DNA from: Antarcticimicrobium luteum
GTDB taxonomy: Bacteria > Pseudomonadota > Alphaproteobacteria > Rhodobacterales > Rhodobacteraceae
Direction of reading: 5' to 3'
Length of the DNA: 64,000 nucleotides
Assembly (NCBI RefSeq): GCF_004358185.1
Contig: NZ_SMUV01000066.1
Span: 1 to 64,000, forward strand
The notes below the pieces were generated by a model. That model did no database searches and was not told the origin of the DNA. It saw only the letters and a list, made by a program, of their open reading frames with translations. The first letter of the stretch is position 1. Each line of letters begins with the position of its first letter. Of the stretch, positions 18,610 through 24,190 are shown piece by piece. A program made the position numbers and the translations under genes.

Positions 18610-19128
18610 ATGAAACGCCCGATCCTGATCCACCCCGACCCCCGGCTGAAAAAGCTCTGCGCACCGGTCGCCGATCTGTCCGACGATCTGCGCAAGCTGG
18701 CCGACGACATGCTGGAAACCATGTATGAGGCCCCGGGCATCGGCCTTGCCGCGCCGCAGGTCGGCGTGCTCGACCGGCTGATCGTGCTGGATTGCGTCAA
18801 GGAGACAGAGGGAACCCCGCGCCCGCTGATCATGTTCAACCCCGAGGTGCTGGCCCACTCGGACGAGACCAGCACCTACGACGAGGGCTGCCTGTCGATC
18901 CCCGAGCAATACGCCGAGGTGACCCGCCCCTCCGAGGTCGAGGTGGCCTGGATGGACCGCGACGGCAACGCCCGCAAAGAGACGTTCGAGGGCCTTTGGG
19001 CGACCTGCGTGCAGCATGAGATCGACCACCTGAACGGCAAGCTTTTCATCGACTATCTGGGTCCGATGAAACGGCAGATGATCACCCGCAAGATGCAGAA
19101 GCTGAAGCGCGACAGGGCGCGGCCCTGA
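18610..19128 (+). CDS. def: Peptide deformylase, first of three
   Basis: A 172-residue deformylase that removes the formyl group from new N-termini. All three motifs are intact: GIGLAAPQVG (residues 43-52), EGCLSIP with metal ligand Cys94, and QHEIDHLNG with His136, catalytic Glu137 and His140. It is probably the main housekeeping enzyme. It is followed after one base by a second copy and then a third, with fmt also nearby though separated by a MaoC gene and a gene-free gap. Confidence 0.96.
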   Translation: MKRPILIHPDPRLKKLCAPVADLSDDLRKLADDMLETMYEAPGIGLAAPQVGVLDRLIVLDCVKETEGTPRPLIMFNPEVLAHSDETSTYDEGCLSIPEQYAEVTRPSEVEVAWMDRDGNARKETFEGLWATCVQHEIDHLNGKLFIDYLGPMKRQMITRKMQKLKRDRARP

Positions 19129-19129
19129 G

Positions 19130-19633
19130 ATGGCGGTACTGCCGATCCTGCGCTGGCCCGATCCGCGTCTTGCCACGGTTTGCGATCCGGTGACGCAGGG
19201 AGAGGATCTCTCATCGCTGATCGAGCAGATGTTTCAGACCATGTATGACGCCCCCGGCCGCGGCCTCGCCGCGCCGCAGGTCGGCGTGACAAAGCGGTTC
19301 TTCGTGATGGATGTGACCTGGAAAGAGGGGGCAAAGACCCCCGTCGCGATGATCAACCCGCGCATTCTGGATCGCTCGGACGAGATCGTCGCGGGCGAGG
19401 AGGGCTGCCTGTCGATCCCCGGTGTGCTGACCGCGATCGAGCGGCCGGCGCGGGTCGAGATGGAATGGACCGACGCGCAGGGCGATGTGCAGCGCCGCTG
19501 GCTGGACGGCTTCGCCGCGCGTTGCGCCCAACATGAATATGATCACCTCGACGGCGTGGTGACCTTCGACCGCCTCGCGCCGGTGGCCCGCGCCGAGGCG
19601 ATCCGCCGCTTCGAGGATATGGCCCAGGCATGA
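19130..19633 (+). CDS. def: Peptide deformylase, second of three
   Basis: A 167-residue paralogue. The motifs are intact: GRGLAAPQVG (43-52), EGCLSIP (Cys93) and QHEYDHLDG (His135, Glu136, His139). The Arg in the first motif and the different loops set it apart from the first copy, so substrate preference may differ. It starts 1 base after the first gene and overlaps the third by 4 bases (ATGA), so the three form one translationally coupled unit. Confidence 0.93.
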   Translation: MAVLPILRWPDPRLATVCDPVTQGEDLSSLIEQMFQTMYDAPGRGLAAPQVGVTKRFFVMDVTWKEGAKTPVAMINPRILDRSDEIVAGEEGCLSIPGVLTAIERPARVEMEWTDAQGDVQRRWLDGFAARCAQHEYDHLDGVVTFDRLAPVARAEAIRRFEDMAQA

Positions 19634-20127
19634 CCGCCCGCCCCTGCCTGCCCTGGCCCGACAAGCGGCTGCGCACCCCCGCCGAGCCGGTGGAGGAGAT
19701 CACCGACGGGATCCGCGCGATCTGGGACGACATGATCGACACCATGGAGGCGATGCCCGGTGTCGGCCTCGCCGCGCCGCAGATCGGCGTGATGCTGCGG
19801 CTGGCCGTGGTCGATGCCTCGGAAGAGCGCGGGAAAGCCGTCCGCATGGCCAACCCCGAGATCCTGCACGCCTCGGTCCAGCCGCGGGCGCATGAGGAGG
19901 CGAGCCCGAACCTGCCTGGCGTATCGGCGAAAATCGAACGTCCGCGCGCGGTGACGGTGCGGTTTCTGAACGAACGGGGCGAGGTGGAGGAGCGCGATTT
20001 CGTCGGGCTCTGGGCAACTTCGGTGCAGCACCAGATCGACCATCTGGCGGGCCGGATGTATTTCGACCGGCTGAGCAAGGTGAAACGCGACATGCTGCTG
20101 CGCAAGGCCCGCAAGCTGGCTGGCTGA
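19630..20127 (+). CDS. Deformylase-like protein with degenerate active site, third of three
   Basis: A 165-residue member of the deformylase fold. GVGLAAPQIG (44-53) is kept. The second motif reads EASPNLP, so the metal-binding cysteine is Ser92. The third reads QHQIDH, so the catalytic glutamate is Gln135 while the two metal-ligand histidines (134, 138) remain. Loss of both the Cys ligand and the general base argues against normal deformylation. A regulatory or scaffolding pseudoenzyme, or an altered hydrolase, is possible. It overlaps the second gene by 4 bases. Confidence 0.9.
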   Translation: MTARPCLPWPDKRLRTPAEPVEEITDGIRAIWDDMIDTMEAMPGVGLAAPQIGVMLRLAVVDASEERGKAVRMANPEILHASVQPRAHEEASPNLPGVSAKIERPRAVTVRFLNERGEVEERDFVGLWATSVQHQIDHLAGRMYFDRLSKVKRDMLLRKARKLAG

Positions 20128-20257: not shown

Positions 20258-20713
20258 ATGGCTGAGGAAACACTGAACTTCATCCCCTTTGAACGTTTCG
20301 AAATCGGGCAGGTGCAGGAATTCGGCGCCTATGAGGTGACCAGGGAAGAGGTCATTGAGTTCGCCGGCAAGTATGACCCCCAGTTCTTTCACCTCGACGA
20401 AGAGGCGGCGAAACAGTCGCTGTTCGGCGGGCTCTGCGCCAGCGGCTGGCACACCTGCGCAATGACCATGGCGATGATGGTCGAGAATATGGACAAGACC
20501 GGCCGGTCGCTGGGCTCGCCCGGTATCGACGCGCTTCGCTGGCTCAAGCCGGTCTATCCCGGCGAGGTGCTGTCGGTGCGGATGGAGGTGCTCGAGCTGA
20601 CCGCGTCGAAAAGCCGCCCGATCGGCTTCGTGAAAAGCAAGGTGACCGTGCTCAATCAGGACGGCGTGCCGGTGATGGAATTCATCAGCAACGGCATCTT
20701 TCCGCGCGGGTAA
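20258..20713 (+). CDS. MaoC-like hot-dog dehydratase
   Basis: A 151-residue single hot-dog domain of the MaoC/R-hydratase type. The hydratase motif is seen as EFAGKYDPQFFHLDEEAA, with Asp and His placed as in (R)-specific enoyl-CoA hydratases, followed by GGLCASGWHTCAM. It should hydrate or dehydrate an acyl-CoA thioester; the substrate is unknown. The ATG at 20258 was chosen for the upstream AGGGAG; an earlier in-frame start would add 23 unrelated residues. It lies 130 bases after the deformylase cluster. Confidence 0.85.
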   Translation: MAEETLNFIPFERFEIGQVQEFGAYEVTREEVIEFAGKYDPQFFHLDEEAAKQSLFGGLCASGWHTCAMTMAMMVENMDKTGRSLGSPGIDALRWLKPVYPGEVLSVRMEVLELTASKSRPIGFVKSKVTVLNQDGVPVMEFISNGIFPRG

Positions 20714-22614: not shown

Positions 22615-22642
22615 GCCGTTGTTTCACGGCAAGAGGCCGGCC

Positions 22643-24190
22643 ATGCGTTTTCTGTCGCTGATTTTCGCCCTGCTGATCCTGCCCTCGGCCCTTTGGGCCG
22701 GGCGGGTGGCGCTGGTGATCGGCAATGCCGCCTATTCCGCGGTGGCCCCGCTGGACAATCCGCGCAACGACGCCGCCGCCGTCGCTGCGGCGCTGACCCG
22801 GCAGGGTTTCACCGTGCTGCGCGGCGACGATCTGGGGCGGATCGGCATGCGCGACACGCTGCGCAAATTCCGCGACATGGCCGACCGGGCCGATATCGCG
22901 CTGGTCTACTACGCCGGCCACGGCATCGAGATCGGCGGGACCAACTACCTTGTCCCCGTCGATGCGCGGCTGGAGGACGAACGCGACGCGCCGCTGGAGA
23001 TGGTCGATCTGGATCTTGTTCTGCGCCAGATTTCCGGCGCGCATGTGATGAAGATGGTGGTGCTGGACGCCTGCCGCAACAACCCCTTCGTCGTCCGGAT
23101 GCAGCAATCCGGGGGCAGCCGCAGCGTCAGCCAGGGGCTGGCCGATCTGCGCACCGATCAGAGCGACACGCTGGTCGCCTATGCCGCCGCCGCCGGTGCC
23201 ATTACGCCGGACGGGACAGAGGGCGGAAACTCGCCCTTTACCGCCGCCTTTCTGGCCGCGCTGGACGGGCCGCCTGCGGATGTGCGCCGGGTGCTGGGAC
23301 GGGTCCGCGACCGGATGCGCCAGTCGGTCCCCGGGGCGGCGCCCTTTGTCTATTCCTCGCTGGGCGGCGGCGAATATGTGATCAACCCCGCAAGTGGCGG
23401 CGGCGCGCCGCAGCCTGCCGCCGCCGCGCCGCCCGCCCCCGCCTCCGGGCCGTCGCTGGCCGAGGATTTCGTGCGCATCGACCGCGACGGCACACTGGCC
23501 GACTGGGATGCCTTTCTGATCCGGCACGAGGGGCAGAGCGACCATCCGCTCTATGCTTTTGCGCTGGAAAAACGCGAGGCGCTGCGCCGCGCCGCCGGCA
23601 CCGCGCCCGGCGGGGGCCGCGCGGGCCTGGCCGCCCCGGAACCGGATCCGCAGGGCGCGGCGCGGCCAATCCGCGCCCCGATCTCCGCGCCAGTCTCCGC
23701 ACCGGCCCCGGCGGCCCCCGCCGCCCCGTCTGTGGTGGACCTCGCCCGCGACATTCAGCGCACGCTGCGCGCCAGCGGCTGCTACCGGGGCGGCGTCGAC
23801 GGCATTCTGGGACCCAATTCGCAGCGCGGGCTCGACGGGTTTGCCGAGGCGGCGGGCATTTCCCTGCCGACCGTCGCGCCGGACGATGCCGCGCAGTTGC
23901 TGCGCATCCGGACCCGGCTGGAGCAACACGCCGGGACCGAATGCAAACAGGTGCCGGTGCGGACGACCACGCGGCAACCGGCGGCCGCGAAACCGCCCGC
24001 CTCCGCCCAGGGCAGGGCCGGAACCAGGAGGACATCGCCGTCTGTCTCCGGCTCCGGCGCGGCGCAATCGGATCGGGGAACAGTCGGCAATGTCACCGGC
24101 GCACAGACACGCAAGGACACGACCAAGCTGGCGCCGGTGGTCTCATCGGACTGCATCGGCGCGCGGCGCAAGTTCTACGACTGCGACTAG
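22643..24190 (+). CDS. Secreted caspase-like (C14) protein with C-terminal peptidoglycan-binding-like region
   Basis: A 515-residue protein. A signal peptide ([19 protein letters not shown]) precedes the caspase-fold domain, which begins [12 protein letters not shown]. The catalytic pair is His93 in YYAGHG and Cys144 in VLDACRNNP, so it should be an active cysteine peptidase of the metacaspase/orthocaspase type. Residues 252-365 are low-complexity, Ala/Pro-rich. Residues 366-410, with [24 protein letters not shown], resemble a PG_binding_1 repeat, which suggests contact with the cell wall. The start was set at the ATG with AGAGG upstream. Target unknown. Confidence 0.88.

Follow-up and report, generated by a model that had tools for sequence, protein, structure and literature searches.

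A third deformylase copy of Rhodobacteraceae, best read as an ancient and selectively maintained pseudoenzyme

Deformylation is usually treated as an automatic housekeeping step carried out by active enzymes. A search of the genome of Antarcticimicrobium luteum found three deformylases, here called c1, c2 and c3 in their order along the window (the whole 64-kb stretch of DNA that was analysed). The third has rewritten catalytic motifs. On our best reading, this c3 is an old pseudoenzyme that descends from type 1B peptide deformylases and has been maintained by selection. The features concerned are the following:

18610..19128, forward strand: c1, a type 1B deformylase of canonical make-up, its catalytic residues complete and its C-terminal helix basic
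19130..19633, forward strand: c2, deformylase copy that keeps EGCLS and HExDH; its motif I contains an Arg (GRGLAAPQ), the basic C-terminal helix is lacking, and relatives often have no such copy
19630..19633, forward strand: ATGA overlap of the c2 stop and the c3 start, conserved in relatives and suggesting translational coupling
19630..20127, forward strand: c3, third deformylase copy of 165 amino acids, catalytically dead as judged by sequence (S92, P93, N94, S131, Q135), basic C-terminal helix retained
19897..19917, forward strand: c3 motif II codons, E90-A-S92-P-N-L-P96, rewritten relative to canonical EGCLS
20026..20043, forward strand: c3 motif III codons, Q133-H-Q135-I-D-H138, rewritten relative to canonical HExxH
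20077..20121, forward strand: codons of the predicted c3 C-terminal helix (150-164), which in E. coli deformylase is the ribosome-docking helix
21055..21960, forward strand: fmt-like gene (methionyl-tRNA formyltransferase) downstream of c3, named by sequence resemblance and position

The first-pass annotation had noticed that c3 carries Ser92 instead of the metal Cys and Gln135 instead of the catalytic Glu, while both His (134 and 138) and the GVGLAAPQIG motif are kept. Translation of 19630-20127 (165 amino acids and a stop) bears this out, motif I being intact at residues 44-53. In order to know whether these changes are peculiar to one strain, deformylases were collected by Pfam search from 160 Rhodobacteraceae genomes representing 159 genera, all at least 98% complete. 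Eighteen genomes have a single, canonical copy and 142 have at least two, including 64 with exactly two. All 142 genomes with at least two deformylases harbor c3, which is absent from the 18 others. Hence, c2 is the optional copy, and c3 is not bound to three-copy operons, since 64 of the 142 genomes with c3 have just a single further deformylase. The pattern QHQ[ILMV]DHL matched 137 of the 160 genomes. Five multi-copy genomes were missed by it. In four of them (G044, G369, G431 and G542), c3 keeps HQxDH but a neighbouring residue departs from the pattern; the c3 of the fifth, G473, was recognised by its score (277.8 bits). A c3 profile search of the same genomes confirmed the count of 142, with c3 matches ranging from 320 down to 209 bits versus 197 for the best canonical copy. 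Two of the 142 matches contain an in-frame stop (TGA, TAA), G442:C2:869948-870439 and G472:C3:95119-95604; the former is the lowest-scoring c3 match and is perhaps at an early stage of loss.

The search for c3 was also extended beyond the family. Pattern matches were found in 13 other genomes of the 387 Alphaproteobacteria sampled; once translated, none was a deformylase. A phage origin was likewise rejected, viral contigs having yielded only deformylases that are 29-42% identical. Besides, a typical Rhodobacteraceae c1-c3 cluster is found on a contig (L050) that bears the name of an actinobacterium, Nocardioides marinus DP1N28-1; this public assembly looks mislabelled or contaminated.

Ten residues are invariant in the 148 distinct c3 proteins (c3 numbering): Gln135, His134, Asp137, His138, Glu90, Gln51, Pro93, Ser131, Arg104 and Arg153. 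Motif I of active enzymes (GxGxAAxQ) is present as GVGLAAPQ, whereas canonical motif II with its metal Cys is replaced by EASPN (Ser92 in 147 of the 148, Pro in the L200 orthologue) and canonical motif III with its catalytic Glu by HQxDH (Gln in 148/148). Such constancy greatly exceeds what chance would give. Both key sites show synonymous turnover, with CAG and CAA for Gln135 and both AGY and TCN classes for Ser92. The alignment of c3, c1 and c2 with the E. coli Def sequence (E. coli numbering) gives as fixed active-site switches between c1 and c3 Gly89 to Ala, Cys90 to Ser, Leu91 to Pro, Ser92 to Asn, Ile93 to Leu, Cys129 to Ser and Glu133 to Gln. Beyond the two positions initially noticed, Pro91 and Ser129 are found in 148/148 and Asn92 in 141/148 distinct c3 proteins. 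Gly43, Gly45, Gln50, Glu88, His132, Asp135 and His136 are common to c3 and c1. Furthermore, the large hydrophobic residues W9, W32 and M42 are fixed in c3 and specific to it.

In E. coli deformylase, the backbone NH of Leu91 and the side chain of Gln50 stabilise the transition state. Since a Pro at position 91 offers no backbone NH, and since the metal Cys and the catalytic Glu are replaced, three separate catalytic elements are gone from c3. Published mutants match two of them: Cys90 is needed for the activity of the Salmonella deformylase (PMC7683392), and E133A inactivates the deformylase of B. subtilis, DefA (PMC11194573). In the Salmonella enzyme, replacement of the second cysteine (C130S) halves activity (PMC7683392). 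Judging from its residues, c3 is very likely devoid of deformylase activity.

However, c3 might catalyse a different reaction, or still deformylate very weakly with another metal or under special conditions, as proposed for type 3 deformylases. Its site conserves the two His, the Asp, Gln50 and Glu88 together with a new Ser-Pro-Asn, and a site that binds another ligand or performs another reaction would equally account for the His, Asp and Gln side chains that are kept. Moreover, the main text of PMC12690207 mentions T. brucei type 3 deformylases with altered motifs that are reported to be active. Against this stand the joint loss of the metal Cys, of the Glu that serves as general acid/base and of the backbone NH at residue 91, and the single mutants C90S and E133A that are already inactive in other species (PMC7683392, PMC11194573). 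In addition, the Pro of L200 indicates that Ser92 is neither an obligatory metal ligand nor an obligatory nucleophile, and therefore that a Ser ligand is not what is conserved. We consider a changed or residual reaction to be quite unlikely; the sequence evidence favours a non-catalytic role at the ribosome or on nascent chains over new hydrolysis. Inhibitors of the actinonin type bind deformylases through the metal; a function of c3 as a decoy for them thus appears unlikely, its metal Cys being lost.

The three copies all match the deformylase family profile PF01327 well above its cut-off (for c3, 138.4 versus 22.8 bits). The score of c3 likewise exceeds the threshold of the NCBIfam equivalog TIGR00079 (133.4 versus 103.95 bits), but stays below that of the stricter NF009484 (140.6 versus 190). 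Automated annotation would therefore name it an active peptide deformylase, and caution is needed with the current equivalog model, which gives this label to a protein that is catalytically dead as judged by sequence.

A copy without catalytic residues could simply be a decaying, functionless gene carried along in the operon; its absence from 18 of the 160 genomes and the two interrupted copies would fit. However, c3 is present in every multi-copy genome with a near-invariant pocket, and the median dN/dS of matched pairs is 0.27 for c3, 0.22-0.23 for c1 and 0.44 for c2 (Nei-Gojobori), values that are to be compared between copies only because dS saturates in these high-GC genes. Between-genome distances after the stem of the c3 clade are 1.2 times those of c1 for c3 and 3.5 times for c2, so that c3 evolves more slowly than the catalytically intact c2. 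Decay is refuted as a general explanation by these conservation data, and we regard it as extremely unlikely. Decay confined to this strain, with canonical residues in the orthologues, is excluded by the family-wide presence of c3 and by substitutions fixed across its 148 distinct proteins. Ser92 and Gln135 are thus conserved under purifying selection, as the first-pass annotation had proposed to check by alignment, and family-wide retention, fixed substitutions, purifying selection and the conserved ATGA coupling strongly support its suggestion that a coupled operon maintains a pseudoenzyme.

All c3 proteins form a single clade (SH-aLRT 100 in a 130-row tree; 100/100 in a second, careful tree), the stem of which measures about 0.98 substitutions per site. 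A long burst on the stem followed by constraint fits the gain of a new selected role and not decay. We therefore hold it very likely that c3 has a selected role, either non-catalytic or altered. It groups with c1 and c2 (91/88), apart from the accessory alphaproteobacterial deformylases, but the alternative tree joining it to the latter is not rejected (p-AU 0.22). Within the c1 subtree, several single-copy genera branch between genera that carry c3, which weakly suggests that c3 was lost secondarily in these single-copy genera.

Inactive accessory deformylases are already known. Type 3 deformylases, described in PMC5591237 and PMC12690207 as weakly active or inactive, occur in archaea, in trypanosomatids and as second copies in S. 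aureus and S. pneumoniae. Like c3, they have substitutions in the catalytic motifs and reside beside an active copy. In contrast to them, c3 clusters with the family's other type 1B copies (in a tree that took in c1, c2, c3 and accessory alphaproteobacterial deformylases), is near-universal in Rhodobacteraceae and is coupled to an active gene. It also retains the type 1B helix, whereas the C-termini of type 3 enzymes are said to vary in length.

An AlphaFold2 model of c3 built with 41 sequences (pLDDT 89.9, pTM 0.85) places a C-terminal helix at residues 150-164. Its best matches in the PDB are bacterial deformylases (TM 0.95, 1.3 Å; E. coli entries 0.94, 1.2 Å), and c3 is thus predicted to have a complete type 1B fold with its terminal helix. 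With type 1B enzymes (E. coli Def; c1) it shares this fold, motif I, Glu88, His132/His136 and the basic helix, but the metal Cys, Leu91, Ser92, Cys129 and the catalytic Glu are replaced and fixed. According to the main text of PMC12690207, the helix of the E. coli deformylase contacts uL22 via L149, K150, R153 and K157 and 23S rRNA via K160 and R163. Lys or Arg is found at E. coli positions 150, 157 and 160 in 148/148 c3 proteins, and Arg at position 151 in 148/148. The mean net charge of the C-terminal 22 residues is +8.0 for c1, +6.4 for c3 and -1.1 for c2, in which the basic contact positions are lost. E. coli position 153 is a Met in most c1 and most c3 proteins; the c3 helix is shorter than that of c1 and c3 ends near position 163, so that the R163 contact falls at the end of the protein. 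Docking of c3, or its affinity for the ribosome, may therefore differ from that of E. coli Def.

Taken together, the role of c3 is very probably not enzymatic and is perhaps exerted at the ribosome. Through its C-terminal helix it would dock where the active c1 binds, at the ribosomal exit, and would either take the formyl-Met N-terminus into its pocket or occlude the site, without hydrolysis. For some nascent chains it could thereby delay or time deformylation and the removal of Met, and coupled translation would keep it in proportion to the active enzyme. The methionine aminopeptidase MAP competes with deformylase for the ribosome, to which deformylase binds at about 2 µM (PMC8712518); hence, a dead competitor could time deformylation. 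That a deformylase can act without catalysis is illustrated by the E133A mutant of B. subtilis DefA, which still inhibits a kinase (PMC11194573). Eighteen of the 160 genomes live without c3, which counts against this mechanism, and as a whole we give it about an even chance. A more specific version, in which we have low confidence, makes c3 a natural substrate trap, i.e. a ribosome-docked reader of formyl-Met that binds nascent N-termini without deformylating them.

Type 1B deformylases are usually monomers. Nevertheless, c3 might be a regulatory or structural partner that binds c1 or c2 directly in order to activate, stabilise or recruit it, for example by supplying the helix that c2 has lost. 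Its conserved translational coupling to c1 or c2, the c3-specific W9, W32 and M42, which could form an interface, and the helix itself are in favour of such a partnership. However, the two-copy genomes have a single other deformylase, so that aiding c2 cannot be the general role of c3, and a mere scaffold would not require pocket residues to be so strictly conserved. We find a direct partnership unlikely.

The other two copies had been taken as active by the first-pass annotation. Both c1 and c2 indeed keep EGCLS and QHExDH, but the activity of c2 is less certain: it has an Arg in motif I in 76/76 proteins (E. coli position 44, beside the substrate pocket) and is without the basic C-terminal helix. 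Considering this Arg44, the lost helix and a rate 3.5 times that of c1, c2 is possibly a deformylase of altered specificity that would work off the ribosome. The residue at the E. coli Arg97 position is aromatic in all 167 c1 proteins, being Tyr in 118 and Phe in 49 of them. R97Y is tied in the main text of PMC12690207 to reduced actinonin susceptibility; therefore, Rhodobacteraceae may be naturally less sensitive to actinonin.

The arrangement of these genes was surveyed in 80 related loci. The c2-c3 junction is a -4 overlap in 35 of 38 loci; at loci devoid of c2, the c1-c3 junction is a -4 overlap in 20 of 41 and at most 22 bases in 39 of 41. Such conserved coupling probably ties the amount of c3 to that of the active enzyme. 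Of the 80 loci, 69 have fmt downstream on the same strand and 7 have it upstream. Between c3 and fmt, the window also contains a MaoC-dehydratase-like ORF (20258-20713, named by resemblance only), a relative of which is found downstream of c3 in just 4 of the 80 loci. Further on, a long ORF (22619-24190) has the look, recognised by eye only, of a secreted caspase-like protein (peptidase C14) with a peptidoglycan-binding-like C-terminal part.

Alternatively, c3 may function off the ribosome, in signalling or in a stress response. B. subtilis DefA moonlights as an inhibitor of the tyrosine kinase PtkA, even as the dead E133A mutant (PMC11194573), and its function, like that proposed for c3, is therefore independent of the catalytic Glu. 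However, DefA is catalytically competent and its non-catalytic role belongs to stress signalling, while the basic ribosome helix of c3 is under strong constraint and the gene stays coupled to c1 or c2 with fmt nearby. We consider this off-ribosome role to be decidedly unlikely.

Rhodobacterales deformylase gene clusters are known as well: the main text of PMC12690207 reports them in 98.1% of reference species and calls their rationale elusive. As described there, they are the same clusters as c1-(c2)-c3. That main text holds no statement that the constant second member of the cluster is catalytically dead and conserved. In the open literature, supplements aside, we found no report of a conserved dead deformylase copy, nor did we find, in the open literature, work on c3 mutants in Rhodobacter or Roseobacter. 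What appears to be new is thus that the constant cluster member is both dead and conserved.

A dead deformylase that is strongly selected family-wide, usually coupled to an active copy and located near fmt points to a layer of control or to a factor that works without catalysis, the ribosomal exit being its most likely place. The clustering of deformylase genes in Rhodobacterales, published as a puzzle, can be approached through c3 in a concrete and testable way. If c3 is indeed a substrate trap, the decision to retain the formyl group would be under regulation throughout a bacterial family.
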